Part shown: positions 27,457 through 36,400 of the stretch, piece by piece
Layout: every line of letters begins with the position of its first letter
Numbering within the stretch: position 1 is the stretch's first letter
Assembly: GCF_029960785.1 (NCBI RefSeq)
Contig: NZ_JASBQE010000006.1
Span: 1 to 64,000, forward strand
DNA: 64,000 nucleotides
DNA from: Polyangium sp. 15x6
GTDB taxonomy: Bacteria; Myxococcota_A; Polyangia; Polyangiales; Polyangiaceae
Direction: 5' to 3'
Notes under the pieces: model-generated
What the model was told of the DNA's origin: nothing
Seen by the model: the letters and a program-made list of their open reading frames with translations, nothing else
Databases searched by the model: none
Position numbers and translations under genes: made by a program

Positions 27457-28521
27457 CTACCGCCGCGTGAAGAACCCCAGACGCCCGAGCATGCGACCCA
27501 CGGCGCGGAAGGCGTCTGCCCGGCCAAACTGGAGCAAGTGGCCGCCGTGAAACGTCTCGAGCGGCGCGTTGAAATGCTCCGCGAGGCGGCGCGCGTGATC
27601 CACGGGGGTGATCTTGTCCTCGCTCGCGGCGAGCACGAGCACCCGATCCGCAGGGACCCGCGAGGGCCGCGCGAATGGGCTCACGACGCGGTGCACGGCC
27701 ACGAGCTCCTCGTACTGGCGGCGCTGCTCCTCGGGGCTTCCCACGAACCGGCCCGCGGCGCGCGCGACATCGGCAATCGAAGCGAGCGGGATGATCGGGA
27801 CCGCGAAGGCGACGCGATCGTCGACCGTCGAGAGCAAGCTCGTCGAGTATCCGCCGAGGCTCATGCCCATGACGCCCACGGCCTCGGAGCCACGATCGCG
27901 CAGGAACGAGACGAGCGCGCGCAGATCGAGCACGGTCTGGCGGAAGCCTTCGTTCGTGACGCGCGGATCACTGCCGGGAAAACGCGGCGCCGATTCGTGC
28001 GAGCGCACGGCGTGGAAAGGCAACACGAACAGCGCGACGTCGAGGCCGCGCTCGTAGAGCCATTGCACGGGCCAGATCCGCTCTTCGAGGCGATACTGGC
28101 CGCAACGGTATCCATGAATCAGAATCGCCGCCGGCCGCGCAGGCCCCGCATGCAAGAAGAGCCGCGCCGCCGCCGTGGCATTCGCTTCGTGCGAAAGGTA
28201 CCTCTCGCGGACGTCCGCAGCGAGCGGCTCGAACCGGCTCGGCCACGTCAGATCCAGCACCGTCCCCGGCTCGGGCCCGGCCATCGGCCGCACACGCGTG
28301 ATGGAAGGCGTGATCGGCGCGGGTGTCGGGAAAAACTCAAGCTCGTGATGCTCGGGCCGATCGTAGATGCGCCGGAGCTCTGCGAGCGCTTCCATGCGCG
28401 CTCCATGGCCGAGCGCCTCGGGATCCGGCTGCCCCTTGGGCCGACTGCGCCGGAGGAGCAAGGCCCCACCCACGGTGGTATCGAAGCGCGAGGCCGCCGT
28501 GCTGAGGAGGCTGCGTATCAC
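27457..28521 (-). CDS. Alpha/beta-hydrolase family protein
   Basis: The 354-residue protein has a Ser hydrolase triad visible as GMSLGGY (nucleophile Ser, about residue 221), Asp in ASEDKITPVDH and His in FHGGHLLQFG. An oxyanion segment ILIHGYRCGQ precedes them. No signal peptide is evident and a basic N-terminus is present. The substrate cannot be told: esterase, lipase and peptidase are possible. It starts 14 bases from the divergent beta'-like gene, which leaves almost no room for separate promoters, and ends 14 bases before the disrupted gene at 27442. Confidence 0.85.
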   Translation of the reverse strand: MIRSLLSTAASRFDTTVGGALLLRRSRPKGQPDPEALGHGARMEALAELRRIYDRPEHHELEFFPTPAPITPSITRVRPMAGPEPGTVLDLTWPSRFEPLAADVRERYLSHEANATAAARLFLHAGPARPAAILIHGYRCGQYRLEERIWPVQWLYERGLDVALFVLPFHAVRSHESAPRFPGSDPRVTNEGFRQTVLDLRALVSFLRDRGSEAVGVMGMSLGGYSTSLLSTVDDRVAFAVPIIPLASIADVARAAGRFVGSPEEQRRQYEELVAVHRVVSPFARPSRVPADRVLVLAASEDKITPVDHARRLAEHFNAPLETFHGGHLLQFGRADAFRAVGRMLGRLGFFTRR

Positions 28522-28535
28522 GAGCCGTTCTTACC

Positions 28536-29612
28536 ATGGAAAGCGCCCCCGACGGAAGCCTCGGGCCGACGTCCGCCATTGACGCACGACGACGCATCAC
28601 GCAAACAGGCCGCTTCATGCGCGACGAACCCGCCACCGTGACCGTGTCGATGGACCTGCCCTCCTCGCTGATCTTCCAGCGCCTCCGCGCGCTCGGCCGC
28701 GTCCTCGGGCTGCGCCTCACGCTCGGCGGCCGTACGCTCGATCTATCCCTCGAAACAGGGGCCTCCGAGCGCTCGCCCTCCTGGTCTGCCGGTGACGTCG
28801 AGCGTCCGGAGACATGGAACTTCCGCAAGAAAAAGCCCGAGGTAGGCGGGCTGCTGTGCCCGAAGCTCTTCGGAGATCCGCCCGATCTCCGCCGATACGC
28901 GCACGTCGCGATGGTCGACCCCGTGGTCCCCTGGCCCGCGCGGCAACTGCTCGCGCCGCTCCTCGCGATGACCGAGGAGGAGCTCTTCGAGCTTTGCTTC
29001 AAGGACCCCGCCACGCTGCTCGCGCGCGTCGGCGAGGCCGAGGCCGCGGGGCGGCGGGTGAATGGTTGGTCCCCGAACGAGCTCGTCTGGTGGTCGATCC
29101 CCGTGATCGCGGCCCCCTTGCGCGCGGCGAGCGTGGAGGAATCTCAGCGCCTCATGGACGCCGGCCGCACGCTCCACGACGCCTACCGGCGCATCGTGAA
29201 CCGGAGAAACCGTCTCCGTCGATTGAAGGATCTCGACGCGCCGGCCGTCATCGTCGAAAACGAGCGCCGGATGGCGATCGAGGCAGTCGACCAGCTCCTC
29301 GCGAACGCCGATCTCGAAAAACCCTACGCGTACGAGGGCGACGACGAGGACGAGGGCAAGCGAACACCGATGATGGACACGACCACGCTGTTCCTCGCGG
29401 CGCTCACGCCCGCGCTCGTGGAGGTCGCCCGGACAAACCCTGGCGGCGGCGAATGGATCACGAAGGCAGCGAGCCTCCGCGACGCGCGGAGCAGCAGGGG
29501 GCCACGCGTCTCCGCATGGTGGAGCCTCGCGGCCGGCCGCCCCCAGGAGCCGTTCGGGGAGGAGGGCATGAAGGTGCTCGTGTTCTCGGAGCTCGAGCCT
29601 CTCCTGAAATGA
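28536..29612 (+). CDS. Stand-alone homologue of the RNA polymerase beta' N-terminus (clamp helices)
   Basis: The 358-residue protein aligns with the N-terminal part of RpoC. SWSAGDVERPETWNFRKKKP and GGLLCPKLFG match the opening SWSxGEVxKPETxNYRTxKPExDGLFCxxIFG block. YRRIVNRRNRLRRLKDLDAP and VIVENERRMAIEAVDQLL match the coiled-coil clamp helices that bind sigma region 2. Between them the zinc-ribbon Cys and most of the clamp are missing, and the catalytic NADFDGD region is absent. An acidic linker (YEGDDEDEG) and an unrelated tail follow. It cannot be a polymerase subunit and may bind sigma or polymerase. An ATG at 28617 is an alternative start; no clear ribosome site is seen before either. 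It is convergent with the tRNA array. Confidence 0.8.
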   Translation: MESAPDGSLGPTSAIDARRRITQTGRFMRDEPATVTVSMDLPSSLIFQRLRALGRVLGLRLTLGGRTLDLSLETGASERSPSWSAGDVERPETWNFRKKKPEVGGLLCPKLFGDPPDLRRYAHVAMVDPVVPWPARQLLAPLLAMTEEELFELCFKDPATLLARVGEAEAAGRRVNGWSPNELVWWSIPVIAAPLRAASVEESQRLMDAGRTLHDAYRRIVNRRNRLRRLKDLDAPAVIVENERRMAIEAVDQLLANADLEKPYAYEGDDEDEGKRTPMMDTTTLFLAALTPALVEVARTNPGGGEWITKAASLRDARSSRGPRVSAWWSLAAGRPQEPFGEEGMKVLVFSELEPLLK

Positions 29613-29618
29613 CGTCGG

Positions 29619-29702
29619 CGGAAGCGGGGTGAGTCGAACACCATGCCAATGGCACGCACCGAGTAGCAAACGGGCTCGGCCCCACGGCCGATTCTCGCTT
29701 CC
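29619..29702 (-). tRNA. tRNA-Ser(GCT)
   Basis: Acceptor stem GGAAGCG/CGCTTCC with G73, as expected for serine. The anticodon loop TTGCTAC gives GCT. The long variable arm TGCC-att-GGCA is present. The D-arm is a 6-bp stem TCGGCC/GGCCGA with only a GTGG loop, unlike the normal 8-11-base D-loop. No CCA is encoded. Confidence 0.85.
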
Positions 29703-29714
29703 AGATACGATCGG

Positions 29715-29797
29715 CGGAAGACGGAGGACTCGAACCCCACACCCGTAGGTGCCCACTGTTTTCGAAACAGGTCTGATCCCTGATCAGTTCGTCTTCC
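29715..29797 (-). tRNA. tRNA-Ser(CGA)
   Basis: Acceptor GGAAGAC/GTCTTCC with G73, anticodon loop TTCGAAA (CGA) and long variable arm CACC-tac-GGTG. The D-arm is CTGATC-agg-GATCAG, a 6-bp palindromic stem with a 3-base loop. Its sequence is close to the Ser(GGA) gene at 29892, so they are recent duplicates. Confidence 0.85.
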
Positions 29798-29801
29798 AGA
29801 A

Positions 29802-29887
29802 TGGTAGAGAGCAGAGGAGTCGAACCCCGCAGCGAGGCTGCCCTCCGTGTTCAAAACGGCGCCGGGTCCACACCCGGAATGCTCTCC
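29802..29887 (-). tRNA. tRNA-Ser(TGA) with encoded CCA
   Basis: Acceptor GGAGAGC/GCTCTCT (G1-U72), anticodon loop TTTGAAC (TGA), variable arm GCAG-cctcg-CTGC and D-arm CCGGGT-gtgg-ACCCGG (6 bp, 4-base loop). The discriminator is A73, not the serine G73, and CCA is encoded at 29804-29802, unlike the other array members. Confidence 0.78.
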
Positions 29888-29891
29888 ACGG

Positions 29892-29977
29892 CGGAAGAAG
29901 GAGGACTCGAACCTCACACCCGTAAAAGGTGCGCACTGTTTTCCAAACAGGCCTGATCCCTGATCAGATCTTCTTCC
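29892..29977 (-). tRNA. tRNA-Ser(GGA)
   Basis: Acceptor GGAAGAA/TTCTTCC with G73, anticodon loop TTGGAAA (GGA) and a long variable arm (CACC...GGTG). The D-arm CTGATC-agg-GATCAG is identical to that of Ser(CGA). This completes a set of four Ser isoacceptors (GCT, CGA, TGA, GGA). Confidence 0.85.
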
Positions 29978-30036
29978 AAATCCCCCTCTCGGCGCCGCAG
30001 CGCCGCGCGGGGGTGCAGTTCGTTGGACGGTCATGC

Positions 30037-30273
30037 TCAGAACCGGCGCCCAGGGCGTCCTCGATCCGCGAGCAACTGCGCCGAGTCGGGCCCGTTGGAA
30101 GGCGACGCCACGCTCATCGAGCGCGCGCCTGCCGGCGATGAAGCCCCGTTCGTCTCGACGATCCGCGAGGCGATTGCGAGCAACAGGACACCAACGAGCA
30201 CGACTGCAGCGACGGCTGCAGACTCCATGGGCAAACGAATCCGAACGCCCTCCATTTGATTCGTATCGAACAT
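30037..30273 (-). CDS. Small single-pass membrane protein in the tRNA array
   Basis: The 78-residue protein starts at ATG 30273 with GAGGAG 9 bases upstream, a good ribosome site. Residues 16-36 (ESAAVAAVVLVGVLLLAIAS) form one membrane helix with a short acidic N-terminus and a Ser/Pro/Gly-rich tail. No family is recognised. It lies between the HNH gene and the Ser tRNA block on the same strand, so it may be transcribed with the array. Confidence 0.55.
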   Translation of the reverse strand: MFDTNQMEGVRIRLPMESAAVAAVVLVGVLLLAIASRIVETNGASSPAGARSMSVASPSNGPDSAQLLADRGRPGRRF

Positions 30274-30398
30274 CACAACTATCTCCTCAGTGAGAGATTG
30301 ATCAACAAAGGTCCCGCGGGCGCGCTCCCCCGTGGCAGCGCCCCGGGGGAGCGGCTCCAGATGAGACCCATATTCCGCCGCGAAGCGCGGGGGGGACA

Positions 30399-30914
30399 TC
30401 AGCTCGCAACGCAGTAATGCACCCAGATGTCGGGGATCCTGCGAGCGCCGAGCCGGACGACGGGGGCAGCGGGCAACCACCGGGGCTTCTCGGGCTTCTT
30501 CAGGAGCTTCATGCCCGCCTGCTCCGGAGTGCGACCGCGCTTCTTCGCATTGCAGCTCTGGCAAGACGCGACGATGTTCTCCCAGACCGTCCGGCCCCCC
30601 TGCACGCGCGGCAGGACGTGGTCGTACGTGAGTTCGCCCGCGTCCTTCTGGACGCCGCAGTACTGGCAGCGAAAGTCGTCACGCACGAACACGTTCGTGC
30701 GGGAGAACTTGACGCCGCGCTTGTGCGAATTCCCATGGCGCTTGAGCCGGACGACGGCCGGCGCGCGAATGGTCATCGTGGGCGAACGAATCTCGTCTTC
30801 GTACGTCTCGAGCACCTCCACCTTACCCAGAAAGCTCAGGGTCACGGCGGTCTGCCAGGAGATGACCTGATGTGGCACCATCCAAGGCGTGAGCAGCAAC
30901 GTTTGCGCGGTCAT
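30399..30914 (-). CDS. HNH endonuclease
   Basis: The 171-residue protein contains a compact HNH domain (about 75-135): CQYCG, LTYDHVLPRVQGG (first His of the motif after Asp), WENIVASCQSCNAKK with the structural Cys pair, and RTPEQAGM. Two CxxC pairs bind zinc. The family includes homing-type, phage-packaging and DNA-repair nucleases. ATG at 30914 has GGAGAGGTGG before it. It is embedded in a tRNA array, a place often used by mobile elements, and could have taken part in its assembly. Being on the array strand it is probably cotranscribed with the tRNAs. Confidence 0.9.
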   Translation of the reverse strand: MTAQTLLLTPWMVPHQVISWQTAVTLSFLGKVEVLETYEDEIRSPTMTIRAPAVVRLKRHGNSHKRGVKFSRTNVFVRDDFRCQYCGVQKDAGELTYDHVLPRVQGGRTVWENIVASCQSCNAKKRGRTPEQAGMKLLKKPEKPRWLPAAPVVRLGARRIPDIWVHYCVAS

Positions 30915-30973
30915 GATCCACCTCTCCGTCTACCTCTTCTTCTTCATGGCTTTCTCCAACTGCAGATGTCCGG

Positions 30974-31046
30974 TGCTCGGAGGGGGATTCGAACCCCCAA
31001 TCGACCAGGTTTGAGCTGGCCACGTTTGCCATTTCGTCACCCGAGC
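30974..31046 (-). tRNA. tRNA-Leu(CAA), short variable loop
   Basis: Acceptor GCTCGGG/TCCGAGC, A73, Leu-type D-arm (GACGAAATGGCAAACGT) and anticodon loop CTCAAAC (CAA). The region between anticodon and T stems is only about 5 bases (CGATT), whereas leucine tRNAs normally carry a long variable arm. Confidence 0.85.
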
Positions 31047-31059
31047 AGCGGGATGCTGG

Positions 31060-31143
31060 TGTCCACGGAGGGAATCGAACCCTCAACGCCCTCTCGGGCA
31101 CGGTATCTGAGACCGCTGCGTTTGCCAGTTTCGCCACGTGGAC
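31060..31143 (-). tRNA. tRNA-Leu(CAG)
   Basis: Acceptor GTCCACG/CGTGGAC, A73, anticodon loop CTCAGAT (CAG) and a long variable arm GCCC-gaga-GGGC, the usual leucine form. It reads codon CTG. Confidence 0.93.
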
Positions 31144-31273
31144 ATTTTTGTGGAGGGGGAGCCCTCGATGGGGCTCCCCCTACGTCCCTCACTCCACTTC
31201 GTTTCGTTCGGGACGACCCCAGATCATGGCTGCTGTCTCTCCTGAGAAGGACAGCGCAATGAACCAGGTATGG

Positions 31274-31347
31274 TCTGGGTGGAGGGATTCGAACCCCCAA
31301 TCCCCGGCTCCCGACGCCGGTGCTCTACCAGATTGAGCCACACCCAG
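31274..31347 (-). tRNA. tRNA-Pro(CGG)
   Basis: Acceptor CTGGGTG/CACCCAG, A73, anticodon loop GTCGGGA (CGG), U33 present. It shares its acceptor with Pro(GGG) at 31530. Canonical length of 74. Confidence 0.92.
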
Positions 31348-31365
31348 ATAAAACTGCCAATTCGG

Positions 31366-31447
31366 TGTCATCGGTGGGAGTCGAACCCACACGCCCTTTC
31401 GGGCACAGGATCTCAGCCTGCTACGTATGCCATTCCGCCACGATGAC
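31366..31447 (-). tRNA. tRNA-Leu(GAG)
   Basis: Acceptor GTCATCG/CGATGAC, A73, anticodon loop CTGAGAT (GAG) and long variable arm GCCC-gaaa-GGGC. A normal class II leucine tRNA. Confidence 0.93.
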
Positions 31448-31452
31448 ATGTG

Positions 31453-31525
31453 TATCCACGGAGGGATTCGAACCCCCCAAAAACGGTTTCTAAGACCGCC
31501 GCGTTTGCCGTTACGCCACGTGGAC
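31453..31525 (-). tRNA. tRNA-Leu(TAG), short variable loop
   Basis: Acceptor GTCCACG/CGTGGAT (G1-U72), A73, Leu-like D-arm and anticodon loop CTTAGAA (TAG). The variable region is just TTTTG. It shares the acceptor of Leu(CAG) but has lost the long arm, as Leu(CAA) has. Confidence 0.85.
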
Positions 31526-31529
31526 ATGG

Positions 31530-31603
31530 TCTGGGTGGGGGGATTCGAACCCCCGATCTCCGGCACCCCGAGCCGGCGCTCTACCAGGTTGAGCCACACC
31601 CAG
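31530..31603 (-). tRNA. tRNA-Pro(GGG) with C33
   Basis: Acceptor CTGGGTG/CACCCAG and A73, nearly the same body as Pro(CGG). The anticodon stem CCGGC/GCCGG encloses TCGGGGT, so the anticodon is GGG and position 33 is C instead of the universal U33. Confidence 0.85.
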
Positions 31604-31616
31604 ATGAATTCGGACA

Positions 31617-31691
31617 TACCCTCGCCAGGAGTCGAACCTGGAACGTCGAGCTTCGGAGGCTCGCGCCTGCAATCACCGGCAGGACGAGGGC
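31617..31691 (-). tRNA. tRNA-Arg(CCG)
   Basis: Acceptor GCCCTCG/CGAGGGT (G1-U72), A73, D-stem CCTGC/GCAGG and anticodon loop CTCCGAA (CCG). It reads CGG. Confidence 0.88.
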
Positions 31692-31695
31692 ATGG

Positions 31696-31764
31696 TCTCC
31701 CTGCGAGGAGTCGAACCTCGCCAGTCGGCTTCGTAGACCGACGCCTGGCCGCCAGGACAGGGAG
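31696..31764 (-). tRNA. tRNA-Arg(ACG), minimal D-loop
   Basis: Only 69 bases long. Acceptor CTCCCTG/CAGGGAG, A73, D-arm CCTGG-cgg-CCAGG with a 3-base loop, and anticodon loop CTACGAA (ACG, presumably edited to ICG). Confidence 0.83.
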
Positions 31765-31809
31765 AAGAAAGAGGAGGCGAGTCAGCAGCTCACCCCCTCA
31801 GCAACGTTG

Positions 31810-31883
31810 CGCACCCGGCGGGAATCGAACCCGCGTCACTGGATTGAGAGTCCAGCAGCCTGACCCACTAGCAATACGGGTGC
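31810..31883 (-). tRNA. tRNA-Glu(CTC)
   Basis: Acceptor GCACCCG/CGGGTGC, G73, anticodon stem CTGGA/TCCAG with loop CTCTCAA (CTC). Confidence 0.9.
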
Positions 31884-31888
31884 ATGAG

Positions 31889-31959
31889 CGCGGTGAGGGA
31901 GAGTCGAACTCCCATCCCGAGTATGGCACACTCGGATTCTGCCGTTGAACCACCACCGC
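31889..31959 (-). tRNA. tRNA-Gly(GCC)
   Basis: Acceptor GCGGTGG/TCACCGC, anticodon stem CGAGT/ACTCG with loop GTGCCAT (GCC). Position 73 reads G rather than the bacterial glycine U73. Length 71. Confidence 0.88.
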
Positions 31960-31965
31960 AATTCG

Positions 31966-32039
31966 TGGAATGACGGGGATTCGAACCCCGATCTCTGCCG
32001 TGCGAGGGCAGTGTTCTACCCAGGTTGAACCATCACCCC
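31966..32039 (-). tRNA. tRNA-Ala(CGC)
   Basis: Acceptor GGGGTGA/TCATTCC with the alanine G3-U70 pair, A73, anticodon stem CTGCC/GGCAG and loop CTCGCAC (CGC). Confidence 0.9.
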
Positions 32040-32048
32040 ATTCGAAGG

Positions 32049-32120
32049 CGCCCCCGAGGAGGATCGAACTCCCCTCGCCCGATCGACAATCGGGCTGCCT
32101 CACCAGATGCATACGAGGGC
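32049..32120 (-). tRNA. tRNA-Asp(GTC), copy 1
   Basis: Acceptor GCCCTCG/CGGGGGC, G73, anticodon stem CCCGA/TCGGG with loop TTGTCGA (GTC). A second Asp tRNA with the same anticodon loop lies at 32581. Confidence 0.9.
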
Positions 32121-32129
32121 AAACGAGAG

Positions 32130-32202
32130 TGGAGAAGGCCGGATTCGAACCGGCGACCCCCTGACTGCCAGCCAGGTGCTCTACCCACTGAGCTACGACC
32201 CC
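32130..32202 (-). tRNA. tRNA-Ala(GGC), damaged acceptor stem
   Basis: D-arm, anticodon loop CTGGCAG (GGC) and T-arm are canonical, and G3-U70 and A73 are kept. The acceptor halves GGGGTCG and CTTCTCC mispair at positions 5-68 (T/T) and 6-67 (C/T), so stability or function is doubtful. Confidence 0.8.
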
Positions 32203-32279
32203 AGAGGGGAGTCGCCCAGAAACACCGCCTGGCCTCCCGCTCATGGCCATGGTGCCTCCGAACGACTCCTGCGAACGAG

Positions 32280-32350
32280 TGGAATGACGGGGACTCGAAC
32301 CCCGATCCCTGCCGTGCAAGGGCAGTGTTCTTCCGTTGAACCATCACCCC
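32280..32350 (-). tRNA. tRNA-Ala(TGC)
   Basis: Acceptor GGGGTGA/TCATTCC with G3-U70, A73, anticodon loop CTTGCAC (TGC). It is almost the same body as Ala(CGC) at 31966. Confidence 0.92.
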
Positions 32351-32365
32351 GAACCGTGAAATCTG

Positions 32366-32490
32366 CGCCGCCGACGGGACTCGAACCCGTGTCCGCCTCA
32401 TAACGAATGATAACCTTCCCCTGCCGGCCCGACTCGGACGAGTTGTCGGAAAAGGTATTTTAGGTGCTCTACCCACTGAGCTACGACGGC
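32366..32490 (-). ncRNA. tRNA-like RNA with a structured insert in place of the anticodon arm
   Basis: A complete acceptor stem (GCCGTCG/CGGCGGC), a D-arm identical in its first bases to Ala(GGC), and a standard T-arm (ACGGG-TTCGAGT-CCCGT) enclose about 70 bases where an anticodon arm should be. The insert folds as CCTTTTCC/GGGGAAGG closing a hairpin ACTC-gtcc-GAGT; no 7-base loop with U33 is found. It is one tRNA away from the 3' end of the Ro/TROVE gene. Bacterial Y RNAs of the YrlA type mimic tRNA and are often encoded beside Ro genes, so a Y-RNA role is an inference. It is too short for a group I intron. Confidence 0.5.
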
Positions 32491-32580
32491 AAAAACGTGG
32501 GACAATTGCGATAACCATCATCGTTCGGCCCGGCCCCCGGGCGAGGGTTTGATGACGGATGTACACGACGATTGTCCCAG

Positions 32581-32654
32581 CGCCCCCGGGGGGATTCGAA
32601 CCCGCCCTCACCTGATCGACAATCAGGCTGCCTCACCAGAATGCATACGGGAGC
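32581..32654 (-). tRNA. tRNA-Asp(GTC), copy 2
   Basis: Acceptor GCTCCCG/CGGGGGC, G73, anticodon stem CCTGA/TCAGG, loop TTGTCGA (GTC). T-stem has one C/C mismatch. It lies 58 bases downstream of the Ro gene. Confidence 0.88.
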
Positions 32655-32712
32655 AAACCGGGCGAGGAGGCGCGTGTGGAGGCACGCGCGCCCTCGTCCT
32701 TCGACTGCAACT

Positions 32713-34371
32713 TCAGGCCCTCGAGAAATCGGCCATTACCTGCGGTGCGGCCGCGTCGAAGCCCACGACGTCCAGCATGCCGGGGTCCTGCGGATCGGCA
32801 ATCGTGAAGCCCGTGGAGGTCATGCCGACCACGACGAGCTTTGCGGGACGGCCCATCGCCTGACGGTAATCGCGAAGCGCCTGGAAAGGATGAATCTCAC
32901 CCGCCCAGGTCTCGCTGTCCGTGTAGACGACGAACGTGTCGACCTCGACCTTGTTCTTTTGAGCCCAGATCATCGGCAGCGCGCAGTCCGTGCCGCCGAA
33001 GGGCAAACCGCTGACCATGCCGACCACGTCGTCGAGGCGTTGCTTCGGCGACAGAGGCAAGGACATGACGCCCGAGCCGCGAGGGCCGAATGCGCCGCCC
33101 GCGGAGGCGAAGGCCAGCGTGCTGAACGACGGCTCGATGCGCGCCGTCGCCATCGCCATGGCCGCGCTCGCGACCCGGGGCGTGAGGCCCGGGATCCCCG
33201 CGATCGTGCCCGAATCCATCGAGCCCGATACGTCGAGGGCGAGCAGGTGCTTCTTTCCCGTCGGCTCGATCGACCGGAATGCGAGGTAAAACGCCTCGTC
33301 CAAGGCGTCCACGATCTCGCGCACCGGCTCCCAGGTGAGCGCGTTTTCGCGCTTCTGGGCACGCTCGCCCCGCCCTTGCGCATACACGCGCAGCGCGGAG
33401 AGAACGCTCACCGGGTGAATCCGGGCCCGCCGGAGCCGCTCGACGTCCGTGAGACGGCTGGCCACGAGCCTCGCGGCCGCGCTCATGGGCGCGAGCAATC
33501 CGACGCTGGTCATCTTGCCGAGGTTCCGGAGCATCGCCGTCTGCGGCATGTGGGGGAGCAGCGCTTCCCACACGGCAGGGTCGTTCTTCCACTCCGTGGG
33601 CACCATTTCGTGCGTGAGCCGTTGCTCGCGCACGAGCGTGACGAGCCGCTCGCGCGGCGCGTCCTTGGCCTCCTCGAAGGCCCGCACGAGGGCCGGCAGC
33701 TTCTCGGGGTCGAGAGCGCCGCCCTTGGCTGCCTCGTTCTTCAGGGCGTCCATACCGCCGACGATCCAGCGGTACATCGCGCCGTGCTCGGCCGTGACGG
33801 GCGTCGGGTGCGAGAGCCGCAAGAGGTCCTTGTGGCTCCAGCCGTCCCGCTGCCGATATTTCACGGCCTGGTAGGCCAATTCATCCGGGCTCTTGCCCTG
33901 GTACCACGCGCCGATCGCGCTCCGGAGGCCGCGGCCCCAGCGCCGGAAGCCCTCCACCGCTCGCGCGAAGTGGAAGAGATCCGTTCCAGTGCGACAAACC
34001 TCCGGCAAGGCCGCGAGCGCGGACTTGCGGACCTCGGGGCGGGCGTGCCCCGCGGCCATCGCCAGGGCGAAGATCGCGGGCTCGTTCTTGGGCGCGCGGC
34101 CCGAGCGGCTGATCTCGACGATCCGCCGAATCGTCCGCTCGCCGTCCGCGTCGAGGCAGCGGCCAAGGGCGCGCGCGTTGTCTTGCGTCAAGGCGCGCTC
34201 GGTCGCGTAGTAGGTGCCGCCCTCGCAGCCGAGGACGAGCCACCGGTCGAGGCGGCCCCAGTCGTCGAGTTCGAAGACGAAGCCGCCTGCGTAGTTTTCG
34301 ACCTGATCGGGCCGCGCCTTCTCCTTTTGCCGGGTGAACAGCGCGGCGAAGTGCTGGATGTAGTTGGCCAT
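32713..34371 (-). CDS. Ro60/TROVE-domain RNA-binding protein (Rsr-like)
   Basis: The 552-residue protein is a bacterial Ro orthologue. The TROVE domain (about 1-360) shows ENYAGGFVFELDDWGRLDRW, GCEGGTYYATERALT and SGRAPKNEPAIFALAMA, all close to vertebrate Ro60. The C-terminal VWA domain (about 370-545) has an intact MIDAS (DVSGSM, GGTDCALPM). Ro proteins ring-bind the 3' ends of misfolded RNAs and are gated by Y RNAs, and in bacteria they work with nucleases such as PNPase. ATG at 34371 has GGAGG 6 bases upstream. It is inside the tRNA array on the same strand, flanked by tRNA-His and tRNA-Asp, with an insert-bearing tRNA-like RNA downstream. Confidence 0.95.
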   Translation of the reverse strand: MANYIQHFAALFTRQKEKARPDQVENYAGGFVFELDDWGRLDRWLVLGCEGGTYYATERALTQDNARALGRCLDADGERTIRRIVEISRSGRAPKNEPAIFALAMAAGHARPEVRKSALAALPEVCRTGTDLFHFARAVEGFRRWGRGLRSAIGAWYQGKSPDELAYQAVKYRQRDGWSHKDLLRLSHPTPVTAEHGAMYRWIVGGMDALKNEAAKGGALDPEKLPALVRAFEEAKDAPRERLVTLVREQRLTHEMVPTEWKNDPAVWEALLPHMPQTAMLRNLGKMTSVGLLAPMSAAARLVASRLTDVERLRRARIHPVSVLSALRVYAQGRGERAQKRENALTWEPVREIVDALDEAFYLAFRSIEPTGKKHLLALDVSGSMDSGTIAGIPGLTPRVASAAMAMATARIEPSFSTLAFASAGGAFGPRGSGVMSLPLSPKQRLDDVVGMVSGLPFGGTDCALPMIWAQKNKVEVDTFVVYTDSETWAGEIHPFQALRDYRQAMGRPAKLVVVGMTSTGFTIADPQDPGMLDVVGFDAAAPQVMADFSRA

Positions 34372-34509
34372 GGGAACCTCCGGCCCGCGCTGCGGGCGAG
34401 CGAAAGAAAGTGAGAAGCAAGAGATGGAGCGACGGATGAGCGTTTGGATCTCGGAGCTATTGCACCAATTTAGAGTTGGATAACCGAGATCGTCCGACCC
34501 GTCCCTCGG

Positions 34510-34582
34510 TTGGGCGTACGGGAATCGAACCCGCCTGCGCAGGGTCACGACCTGCCCTCTTCAGCTAGATGAGTAACGCCCA
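34510..34582 (-). tRNA. tRNA-His(GTG), atypical
   Basis: Acceptor TGGGCGT/ACGCCCA, anticodon stem GCAGG/CCTGC with loop TCGTGAC, so anticodon GTG with C33 instead of U33. A G precedes position 1, but position 73 is A, not the C that should pair with G-1. The D-loop lacks G18G19. Several histidine identity features are therefore missing. Confidence 0.75.
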
Positions 34583-34590
34583 CACAATGG

Positions 34591-34663
34591 CGCCCCGTGG
34601 GGGAGTCGAACCCCCGGCAACCGGATTGAAAGGCCGGTATCCTGACCGCTAGACGAACGGGGC
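34591..34663 (-). tRNA. tRNA-Glu(TTC)
   Basis: Acceptor GCCCCGT/ACGGGGC, G73, D-arm TCGTCTAGCGGTCAGGA typical of tRNA-Glu, anticodon loop CTTTCAA (TTC). One C31/T39 mismatch in the anticodon stem. Confidence 0.92.
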
Positions 34664-34735
34664 ATGAGGGGGTTGGTGGCGGGGTCGCCGGGCCCGTTTC
34701 AAGGAGCACGGCGACCCCACCACCAAGAGAAGCGG

Positions 34736-34808
34736 AGCCCTCGCCCGGAATCGAACCGGGGAGACCCTGGATACGAAGCAGGGCGCTCGACCATCGAGCG
34801 ACGAGGGC
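34736..34808 (-). tRNA. tRNA-Thr(CGT), minimal D-loop
   Basis: Acceptor GCCCTCG/CGAGGGC keeps the threonine G1-C72 and C2-G71 pairs. D-arm GCTCGA-tgg-TCGAGC is 6 bp with a 3-base loop. The best anticodon arm is CCTGC-TTCGTAT-CCAGG (anticodon CGT, U33, one C/C mismatch). An Arg(TCG) reading needs an unpaired stem and was set aside. N73 is T. Confidence 0.72.
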
Positions 34809-34817
34809 AAACGGCGG

Positions 34818-34890
34818 CTCCAACGGAGGGCATCGAACCCCCATCTCCTCGCTTAACAGGCGAGTGCTCTACCAGTTGAGCTACGTTGAA
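34818..34890 (-). tRNA. tRNA-Asn(GTT)
   Basis: Acceptor TTCAACG/CGTTGGA, G73, anticodon stem CTCGC/GCGAG with loop CTGTTAA (GTT). Canonical form. Confidence 0.92.
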
Positions 34891-34985
34891 ACGCGCAGGG
34901 GCGAGGTGCCCCTGCGGCATCGCGTTGTGTATCGAAATCGATTGTCATAGAACGAGTCCCGCCTCCGAAGAGGTGGGATGCGTCG

Positions 34986-35056
34986 TGGATCCGGAGGGGA
35001 TCGAACCCTCGCCTGCCGCTTAAGAGGCGGCTGCTCTACCCTTGAGCTACGAATCC
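34986..35056 (-). tRNA. tRNA-Lys(CTT)
   Basis: Acceptor GGATTCG/CGGATCC, A73, anticodon stem GCCGC/GCGGC with loop CTCTTAA (CTT). It shares much of its body with the Lys(TTT) and both Gln genes nearby. Confidence 0.92.
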
Positions 35057-35114
35057 GAAGCAGACGGCGCCCCTCGGGCGCACGTCTCCTCACGCGCGTG
35101 GCTTCACGCGCCGG

Positions 35115-35193
35115 TGTGGACGGGAGGAGTCGAACCTCCAAGCAAACGCGGATGGTTTACAGCCACCTGGGCTCACCAATGCCCAGCGTCCAC
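35115..35193 (-). tRNA. tRNA-Tyr(GTA)
   Basis: Acceptor GTGGACG/CGTCCAC, A73, anticodon loop CTGTAAA (GTA), variable arm CGCGTTTGC of intermediate length as in bacterial tRNA-Tyr, and an extended 6-bp D-stem CTGGGC/GCCCAG with a normal loop. Confidence 0.92.
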
Positions 35194-35231
35194 AAGCTCT
35201 TTTTTCGTTCCCCCCGTGGCCCCAAAACCAA

Positions 35232-35265
35232 GAAGGCCGCCAGGGTTCTCCCGGGCGGCCTCCTT
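35232..35265 (-). terminator. Terminator of tRNA module 1
   Basis: Minus-strand hairpin GGAGGCCGCCC...GGCGGCCTTC followed by TTGGTTTTGG. An almost identical hairpin ends module 2 (35685-35719), and a related one lies at 36746-36780. A palindrome GTCAC-gtc-GTGAC (35271-35283) sits between it and the small gene and is conserved in both modules. Confidence 0.7.
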
Positions 35266-35288
35266 GGACGCGTCACGTCGTGACGATC

Positions 35289-35453
35289 CTAGGATCCACC
35301 CGTATCGAGAGGCTCGAGACCACGCACCAAGCCCGATTCCTTGGCCGCATGATATCGCGAAGGGCTCCGCAGGAGGTCGCTCGGGTCCGCGTCCGGCAGC
35401 TCGCCAGCGTTCCCCTTCGCGTCCTCGTCGTACAGATGCTTGCCCATCGCCAT
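35289..35453 (-). CDS. Small protein of the tRNA modules, copy 1
   Basis: The 54-residue protein starts at ATG 35453 behind GCGAGGGA. It aligns with the small protein at 35743-35919: both begin MAMGKHLY, contain KG-x-AGELP and end GLEPLDTGGS, with diverged middles but preserved frame. That pattern supports a real coding gene. It is soluble, acidic to neutral, and of no known family. It follows tRNA-Gln(CTG) directly on the same strand and ends before a terminator. Confidence 0.68.
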   Translation of the reverse strand: MAMGKHLYDEDAKGNAGELPDADPSDLLRSPSRYHAAKESGLVRGLEPLDTGGS

Positions 35454-35469
35454 TCCCTCGCCCCGTTTA

Positions 35470-35498
35470 CATTTACTTTGTTTCGACGTTCGGGTCAA
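35470..35498 (-). promoter_or_regulatory. Conserved promoter-like block, module 1
   Basis: TTGACC (35498-35493), 17 bases and TAAATG (35475-35470) stand before the small gene. The same block recurs in modules 2 (35961-35933) and, in altered form, 3 (about 36205-36265). The leader would be very short, so activity is uncertain. Confidence 0.4.
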
Positions 35499-35563
35499 CC
35501 ATTTTATTCGCCGTCCCGTCGATTTTATTTTCGTCGTCTGCCGTATTCGGATTCGGCAGATGG

Positions 35564-35636
35564 AGGATCCGGGAGGCCTCGAACCTCCACGCTTCCGCTT
35601 CAGAGGCGGACGCTCTGCCCATTGAGCTACGGATCC
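35564..35636 (-). tRNA. tRNA-Gln(CTG) on a Lys-like body
   Basis: Acceptor GGATCCG/CGGATCC, anticodon stem TCCGC/GCGGA with loop CTCTGAA (CTG). Apart from the anticodon loop and few bases it is the same molecule as the neighbouring Gln(TTG) and Lys(TTT) genes. N73 is T instead of glutamine G73. Confidence 0.88.
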
Positions 35637-35684
35637 AAAACCGCATCCCCGCGCCCCCGCCGCCGCGCTCGAGGCGCAAAACGA

Positions 35685-35719
35685 CGAAGGCCGCCAGGGT
35701 TTTCCCGGGCGGCCTCCTC
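35685..35719 (-). terminator. Terminator of tRNA module 2
   Basis: Hairpin of the same sequence family as 35232-35265 (GGCCGCC/GGCGGCC) followed on the minus strand by TTCGTCGTTTTG. It ends the unit made of tRNA-Gln(TTG) and the second small gene. Confidence 0.65.
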
Positions 35720-35742
35720 GGACACGTCACGTCGTGACGATC

Positions 35743-35919
35743 CTAGGATCCACCCGTATCGAGAGGCTCGAGACCACGATTCGCCGTCGAGCTCGATTCG
35801 CTCGCCGCCTGATCGCGCGAAAGGCTCTGCCGCCCCGAGATCCCGAAGAGGCACGCGCCCGGCAGCTCGCCGGCGTCGCCCTTCGTGCTCTCGAGATACA
35901 GATGCTTGCCCATCGCCAT
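35743..35919 (-). CDS. Small protein of the tRNA modules, copy 2
   Basis: The 58-residue paralogue of the protein at 35289-35453 has the same start (MAMGKHLY), the same central KGDAGELP block and the same last ten residues. The middle is different and four residues longer. The ribosome site GAGGGA is conserved. It lies between tRNA-Gln(TTG) and a terminator. Function unknown; a host-derived tRNA-linked toxin, antitoxin or regulator is speculation only. Confidence 0.68.
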   Translation of the reverse strand: MAMGKHLYLESTKGDAGELPGACLFGISGRQSLSRDQAASESSSTANRGLEPLDTGGS

Positions 35920-36030
35920 TCCCTCGCCCGTCTCTCTACATCCATTTCGACGTTCGGTCAACCATTTCATTCGTCGACCCGTCGATTTTATTTTCTTCAG
36001 TTCGTCGGCTGTACATTCACGCAGCCGCGG

Positions 36031-36103
36031 AGGATCCGGGAGGGCTCGAACCTCCACGCTTCCGCTTCAAAGGCGGACGCTCTGCCCATTGAGCTACGGA
36101 TCC
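36031..36103 (-). tRNA. tRNA-Gln(TTG) on a Lys-like body
   Basis: Acceptor GGATCCG/CGGATCC, anticodon loop CTTTGAA (TTG), N73 is T. It differs from Gln(CTG) at only two positions and from Lys(TTT) at about seven. Confidence 0.88.
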
Positions 36104-36326
36104 GTGCAGCAGGCTGTCGATGAACTTGCCTGCGAGTGAGACCATCCCGTGCACTCACGCACAGGCGCTCTCCCCTGCCCCTTCCCCGTCCCCTCGCGTT
36201 TCGTTGTACATCCATTTCGACGTTCGAGGCAAGAAAATGTTTTGGTCGACCGTCGATTTTATTTTCGTCTCTTTCACCCCGTTCGCTTCAAAATGAATCG
36301 CCTAGCTTTCTATCTATATAAGGAGG

Positions 36327-36400
36327 TGGATCCGGGAGGGCTCGAACCTCCACACTTCCGCTTAAAAGGCGGCTGCTCTACCCATTGAGACTACGGATCC
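36327..36400 (-). tRNA. tRNA-Lys(TTT)
   Basis: Acceptor GGATCCG/CGGATCC, A73, anticodon loop CTTTTAA (TTT). An extra T lies at the base of the D-stem (TAGTCTC). It is the 5'-most tRNA of the array. Confidence 0.9.

Follow-up and report, generated by a model that had tools for sequence, protein, structure and literature searches.

The window analysed here is a stretch of 64,000 nucleotides on contig C242 of the genome of the soil bacterium Polyangium sp. 15x6 (13.4 Mb, 275 contigs). Between a hydrolase-like frame and a tRNA array, it carries a gene for a separate protein homologous to the N-terminal clamp of the RNA polymerase beta' subunit, which is referred to below, together with its Polyangium orthologues, as group A. 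The features of the locus are as follows.

27457-28521, minus strand: divergent neighbour, alpha/beta hydrolase-like (identified by eye, start uncertain), an open reading frame that adjoins the gene in all five related loci
28617-29612, plus strand: group A free clamp gene with its probable start, 331 aa plus stop, from the open frame, conservation of the ATG and the PF04997 match
28767-28889, plus strand: beta' opening block, residues ~51-91, from PDB and E. coli-numbered alignments, with the zinc ribbon missing after the block
28890-29051, plus strand: clamp body (the part of beta' that follows the zinc ribbon), residues ~92-145, from the alignment, in a confident part of the model
29160-29309, plus strand: clamp helices, residues ~182-231, from the alignment, with nine of nine reported sigma-docking residues
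29310-29609, plus strand: variable C-terminal tail, residues 232-331, from dN/dS and low pLDDT, with no significant beta' match
29713-36400, minus strand: convergent tRNA array, 26 genes in the window by ARAGORN, adjoining the gene or its remnant in five of five related genomes

An uninterrupted reading frame of 358 aa runs from 28536 to 29612 on the plus strand. The first-pass annotation had given the span of this whole frame, with the start as tentative; the frame is indeed open, but its first ATG is not the better conserved one. ATG 28617 is common to all five full-length Polyangium copies, whereas ATG 28536 is found in only two (the remaining copies read ACG, ACG, and ACA), and the start was therefore placed at 28617. 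The gene thus probably encodes a protein of 331 aa (coding part 28617-29609, stop ending at 29612), with ATG 28536 as a less likely upstream start. No sigma70-type promoter was found at 28400-29760 by a promoter scan of a kind that is uninformative in Myxococcota. The host's own rpoC is an intact frame of 1445 codons on another contig (C226), where it adjoins rpoB; the group A gene is therefore not a misassembled rpoC, and its interpretation as a broken copy of the host gene was likewise rejected. The group A gene has no linkage to rpoB, as PF00562 is matched just once in the host, on C226 next to the complete rpoC, and no additional beta or alpha pieces were found in the host beyond this match and one to PF03118.

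The opening block of beta' is present in the window protein as SWSAGDVERPETWNFRKKKP, then GGLLCPKLFG, and its coiled coil reads YRRIVNRRNRLRRLKDLDAPAVIVENERRMAIEAVDQLL. Both elements had been proposed in the first-pass annotation, as the start of RpoC and the coiled coil that binds sigma, and both are real, with sequence, Pfam, and PDB matches in agreement. PF04997 (RNA polymerase Rpb1, domain 1) matched the 358-aa form in two stretches (E 4e-13, 49.8 bits) and the 331-aa form at E 3.1e-13; the scores of 49.8-50.2 bits lie above the curated cut-off of 39.7 bits. The NCBIfam rpoC models also matched in two stretches, with E values down to 3e-25 and scores below one tenth of their full-length cut-offs. 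Solved beta' chains in the PDB were matched with E values down to 4e-21, the best chain (6wvj_D) being covered at its residues 16-58 and 217-307. The zinc-ribbon cysteine pattern was not found in the alignment of the five group A copies, and NADFDGD, which both the host and E. coli RpoC contain, is absent from the window protein, in line with the earlier claim that the zinc finger and the active site are lacking. The window protein is thus a degenerate beta' paralogue that has retained the opening block, clamp body, and clamp helices and has lost the zinc ribbon and the catalytic parts. A Pfam scan yielded PF04997 and a sub-threshold match to CCDC85 only, with no anti-sigma domain.

An AlphaFold2 model, built on an 11-row alignment, had a mean pLDDT of 60.5 and a pTM of 0.60. 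By ten-residue blocks, pLDDT was 75-94 at residues 101-150 and 84-95 at residues 191-230, and it was poor over the N-terminal 50 and the C-terminal 100 residues. Helices are predicted at residues 184-205 and 210-228, forming a confident clamp-helix hairpin. All 50 PDB rows listed by Foldseek were RNA polymerase entries (best E 2.9e-8), and the best VIA-align comparison gave Z 13.4, rmsd 3.8, and 211 aligned residues; with the poor parts excluded (residues 48-242), the values were Z 12.8, rmsd 3.8, and 187 aligned. Such Z values are modest on their own for a partly helical model, and agree with the sequence homology when the two are combined. The comparison with the beta' clamp that the first-pass annotation had suggested recovered both the hairpin and a fold match to beta'. 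The VIA-align ranges reached the beta' C-terminus, but in the low-pLDDT part of the model; as 113-292 of 300 shuffles aligned to RpoC equally well in ten comparisons, a reading of the tail as a beta' C-terminal clamp segment is not supported. Taken together, sequence, profile, predicted structure, and orthologues confirm the identity of the protein as a free clamp.

Six Polyangium genomes were compared (G000, the window's host, and G085-G089). The full-length group A gene was present in five of them, with the other four copies 72-85% identical to that of the window, and G088 retained only residues 102-171 of the protein, at the same place. Among the related genomes that carry this gene are those of Polyangium sp. 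y55x31 and P. fumosum DSM 14668. No other close copy appeared among the matches listed for 108 family genomes and 377 phylum genomes, lists that are dominated or shortened by RpoC rows and from which weak relatives may be absent. These whole-genome searches covered Myxococcota, and the all-species scan used patterns suited to close relatives only.

Pairwise dN/dS among the Polyangium group A copies (Nei-Gojobori count) was 0.29-0.46 over the whole gene (mean 0.38), with lower values in the opening block (0.08-0.26) and clamp helices (0.12-0.38) and higher ones in the C-terminal tail (0.49-0.98). Invariant columns were densest in the clamp helices (37 of 50). The means of three neighbours were 0.13 (the hydrolase-like frame at 27457-28521), 0.08, and 0.06. 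The group A gene is therefore under purifying selection that is weaker than theirs, and at least one species can do without it.

In all six Polyangium genomes, the gene or its remnant sits between the hydrolase-like frame and a tRNA-Ser (cga) gene of the array. The convergence with the array stands as first described, the tRNA genes lying on the minus strand from 29713. The search for free clamps beside tRNA arrays elsewhere, also proposed there, succeeded within the genus and failed beyond it: no tRNA gene was found at 31 other free-clamp loci (stretches of 2.8-15 kb), so the tRNA neighbourhood does not characterise the wider set described below. Several details of the array were recorded. 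ARAGORN calls tRNA-Ser genes at 29713-29797 and 29890-29977 (minus strand) and finds both in all five related loci; both are below the Rfam tRNA gathering score. Two tRNA-like stretches, recognised by eye at about 29627-29703 and 29809-29887 (minus strand), lie between the group A gene and the tRNA-Ser genes; they were missed by ARAGORN and at the Rfam gathering score, and similar sequence occurs in G088. At 32366-32490 (minus strand), a 125-base Rfam tRNA match (48.6 bits) without an ARAGORN call may be a tRNA that carries an insert. The array also contains a 171-aa frame (30399-30914, minus strand) that resembles, by eye, an HNH-type endonuclease and ranks with the best-conserved genes at the locus (mean dN/dS 0.06 in five Polyangium genomes).

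Neighbours read by eye included no recognised sigma, anti-sigma, or phage gene beside the group A gene, which occupies the same chromosomal place in all six genomes. Searches of mobile elements by tblastn matched the window protein in five phage records (two annotated as rpoC, three unannotated) and two plasmid records (one annotated as beta', one without a listed feature), over 11-28% of the query, and a phage or plasmid origin was rejected. No relative was found in viral contigs with the window protein as query, and a mixed alignment (A3) yielded one match, a viral beta' with NADFDGD and not a free clamp. This viral contig (L107:3968-7234, plus strand) encodes a divergent beta' with NADFDGD, that is, a viral multisubunit polymerase.

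A distant match in genome G082, when used as query, led to a second paralogue in the window's own genome (G000 contig C269, 576 aa) and its orthologues, referred to as group B. Group B is found in five of the six Polyangium genomes, with no match in G089; its genes are intact, with a mean dN/dS of 0.31 in five genomes. It retains the zinc-ribbon cysteines and carries 1-3 of the nine sigma residues in the five Polyangium copies, with seven in G106 and two in G067. The clamp part of its predicted model aligned with beta' residues ~23-332 (Z 17.5, rmsd 5.3, 232 aligned). The C-terminus is strand-rich in the model and had no Pfam propeller match; because of this, and because matches to the clamp took up the fold lists, it is called propeller-like here.

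With group B as query, non-RpoC members were found in at least 14 of 377 Myxococcota genomes, and the window protein is no singleton and belongs to a wider Myxococcota free-clamp set. Its architectures comprise short clamps, clamps followed by a propeller-like part, clamps with TIGR02996, and beta-beta'(-alpha-CTD) chimeras without the active site. Short clamps occur in G312 (336 codons), G145 (295 codons), G252, and G324; that of G145 has no zinc ribbon, matches PF04997 at 8.7e-20, and holds six of the nine sigma contacts. TIGR02996 was matched at 7.2e-14 in G416 (above the cut-off) and at 4.7e-6 in G440 (below it). In the chimeras, a C-terminal beta piece (PF00562) precedes the beta' clamp (PF04997), followed in G302 and G410 by the alpha C-terminal domain (PF03118); the G430 chimera consists of beta and beta' only. 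In similar proteins of G324 and G406, the match to the alpha C-terminal domain is significant, that to PF04997 stays below the threshold, and the beta part was recognised by eye. NADFDGD was missing from all 33 free-clamp or chimera proteins checked. Several genomes held more than one such gene in a survey of 27 genomes, which gives no prevalence figure since these were selected for actual or possible matches.

Among the individual loci, chimeras without NADFDGD were seen at L088, L091, L083, L111, and L113, all but L083 with the alpha C-terminal domain. An IS66-like transposase frame (by eye; L033:8105-9799, minus strand) lies directly upstream of the G082 free-clamp relative. Gene calls read by eye around 16 other free-clamp loci (L033, L051, L056-L059, L080-L083, L086-L091) revealed no shared neighbour. 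Two very long proteins (L121:1864-6534 and L122:2108-7486, both plus strand; frames of 1557 and 1793 codons) showed a weak zinc-ribbon and clamp-like match at 7.6e-10 and 3.9e-11, respectively; as L121 lacks a Pfam match, the two are given no weight here.

In a maximum-likelihood tree of the clamp region, all sampled members except the G410 chimera fell on one branch apart from RpoC (100/100), so that the phylogeny with rpoC proposed in the first-pass annotation groups the window protein with the free clamps. Group A stood beside the short G312 protein in this tree (88/88, unstarred), whose bootstrap was not fully settled. A second tree with other rows gave 98/99 for the free-clamp branch and left the short G145 protein unplaced. 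The G410 chimera fell inside RpoC in both trees (99/80 and 95/81), and a tree joining all members including this chimera was not rejected (p-AU 0.19). The inner branching order is unsure because of long branches. A single old origin is likely for most of the set on this phylogeny, and a second origin is possible for one chimera.

The beta' clamp-helix contacts with sigma listed in a passage of PMC10216364 are R275, R278, R281, L282, L285, I291, E295, and M298, and a passage of PMC8321222 calls R275, E295, and A302 necessary. All nine reported residues are identical in the five group A proteins in the E. coli-numbered alignment; 32 of 33 RpoC rows have all nine and one has eight. Across the five copies and E. 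coli, 26 of 48 clamp-helix positions are identical, including all nine contacts (P 0.002), and 23 of the 37 positions invariant in RpoC rows are kept in group A, including eight of eight contacts (P 0.013), both P values assuming independent positions. The more degraded members B_G106, C_G012, P_G124, R_G440, and R_G416 kept seven or eight of the nine contacts (P 0.002-0.009). No significant excess was seen in S_G312, X_G302, and X_G410, as these are RpoC-like throughout. The enrichment in degraded members means either that sigma binding would be retained in much of the set or that these positions may also be needed for the folding of the hairpin.

With its sigma face kept and the rest of beta' gone, the free clamp should be unable to replace the subunit in core polymerase and should compete with it for sigma. 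Like core polymerase, it would dock by its clamp helices onto region 2 of at least one sigma factor, and it would keep what it binds off the core, as an anti-sigma or sigma-buffering protein. Such sigma sequestration or buffering through region 2 is the function that we tentatively favour for the group A protein, at somewhat less than an even chance, on the strength of the kept sigma face, the activity of the laboratory fragment beta' 1-314, and 82 matches to sigma region 2 in the host (matches, not a curated count). With this number, strong sigma competition for the core would be expected, which would leave room for a buffer. In core polymerase, the clamp helices are where sigma region 2 docks, as a passage of PMC12000874 states, and an extended -10 promoter is melted by beta' 1-314 together with a sigma fragment (Young 2004, described in PMC4057154). 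The sigma sponge or decoy suggested in the first-pass annotation named a candidate role to which the nine docking residues in all five orthologues and, by analogy, the action of beta' N-terminal fragments with sigma lend indirect support. Several observations weigh against sigma sequestration: the contact enrichment is not peculiar to group A and may partly reflect hairpin folding, group B of the same genus has only 1-3 of the nine residues, the gene has decayed in one of six Polyangium genomes and changes more rapidly than the genes around it, and a reading of the neighbourhood by eye revealed neither a sigma nor an anti-sigma gene. The same clamp helices, moreover, bind NusG-type factors. 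The free clamp might hold NusG/RfaH-family elongation factors by the clamp-helix tip and tune elongation, given that RfaH binds this tip and competes there with sigma (part of PMC2871177) and that the tip residue I291 is present in all five copies. However, I290, also required by RfaH, is V in all five (a mild change), and the retained residues cover every reported sigma contact, so we consider this role unlikely. There is a slim chance that the free clamp and sigma act together on promoter DNA, with sigma region 2 switched to its -10-binding state and promoters blocked or marked without the core; besides promoter melting by beta' 1-314 with a sigma fragment, a passage of PMC12000874 reports that a clamp fragment alone raises -10 single-stranded DNA binding by sigma 2, but the zinc ribbon, tied in beta' 1-314 to initial promoter binding according to part of PMC4057154, is missing here.

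Patchy presence, fast evolution, and repeated Myxococcota paralogues would also fit a conflict gene, namely a sacrificial clamp that soaks up a clamp-attacking phage protein, toxin, or antibiotic. This decoy or immunity role is rather unlikely, as PADLOC models gave no match in the four free-clamp family proteins scanned, and the gene keeps one chromosomal place in all six genomes, where no phage gene was recognised next to it. A decaying relic, open by chance and without present function, could account for the reduced copy in G088, the mean dN/dS of 0.38 against 0.06-0.13 in the three neighbours, and the fast-evolving tail; yet the frame, start, and clamp helices are intact in the other five copies, and dN/dS is low on the clamp helices and the opening block, which makes decay improbable. 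The intact group B, under constraint with few sigma residues, suggests that the clamp fold may act simply as a scaffold or as an interaction module with no connection to sigma or NusG. Such a use is probable for the fused relatives; for group A, which retains all nine sigma residues, its chance is very slim.

As a rule, each subunit of core polymerase is an intact, essential protein present in a single copy. The window protein has in common with RpoC residues 1 to ~310 the opening block, clamp body, clamp helices, and nine sigma residues, and differs from the beta' subunit in being a separate protein of 331 aa without the zinc ribbon, NADFDGD, or rpoB linkage and with its own N- and C-terminal parts. 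Anti-sigma factors have other folds, by which they imitate or mask surfaces of sigma; they resemble the window protein in its proposed outcome, sigma kept from the core, whereas the window protein mimics the core itself. The polymerase of Helicobacter has a beta-beta' fusion. Such fusions (NCBIfam models PRK09603 and PRK14844) join beta and beta', as do the Myxococcota chimeras, but these whole-polymerase fusions keep the active site, while the chimeras are without NADFDGD. The CarD/CdnL family includes myxobacterial proteins that act on the transcription machinery, as the window protein may; they bind polymerase (CarD binds beta), whereas the window protein is a polymerase piece, and no CarD-family match to it appeared in the Pfam scan. 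The laboratory fragment beta' 1-314, as described in part of PMC4057154, covers nearly the same stretch of beta' and is also isolated from the core; the window protein differs in being natural, conserved in the genus, and devoid of the zinc ribbon, and any such activity of it is putative. Neither a free clamp protein nor an inactive beta-beta'-alpha chimera was found described in the open-licence literature searched. The earlier view that no such protein had been described thus holds for that literature, although the protein is one of a wider Myxococcota set. The domain itself is known; its natural free-standing form with the sigma face kept, and the wider set, are undescribed to our knowledge.

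The free clamp is the natural equivalent of the laboratory fragment beta' 1-314 from promoter-melting studies, and as an evolved module it could serve to test sigma-clamp allostery. If the favoured sigma sequestration is true, a natural sigma-gripping copy of the clamp would be a new form of sigma-traffic control, one that works by mimicking the core. The inactive beta-beta'-alpha chimeras suggest that polymerase pieces have been recombined in Myxococcota, perhaps repeatedly, which bears on how regulators arise from basal machinery. It is possible, although on balance doubtful, that Myxococcota possess a regulatory layer of dismantled RNA polymerase, in which catalytically dead clamps and beta-beta'-alpha-CTD chimeras would capture sigma or other clamp-binding proteins, propeller-like and TIGR02996-containing fusions would carry the clamp to new partners, and the window protein would be the compact Polyangium member with its sigma face intact. 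Loose polymerase pieces in many distant relatives hint at such an unrecognised layer of gene control.
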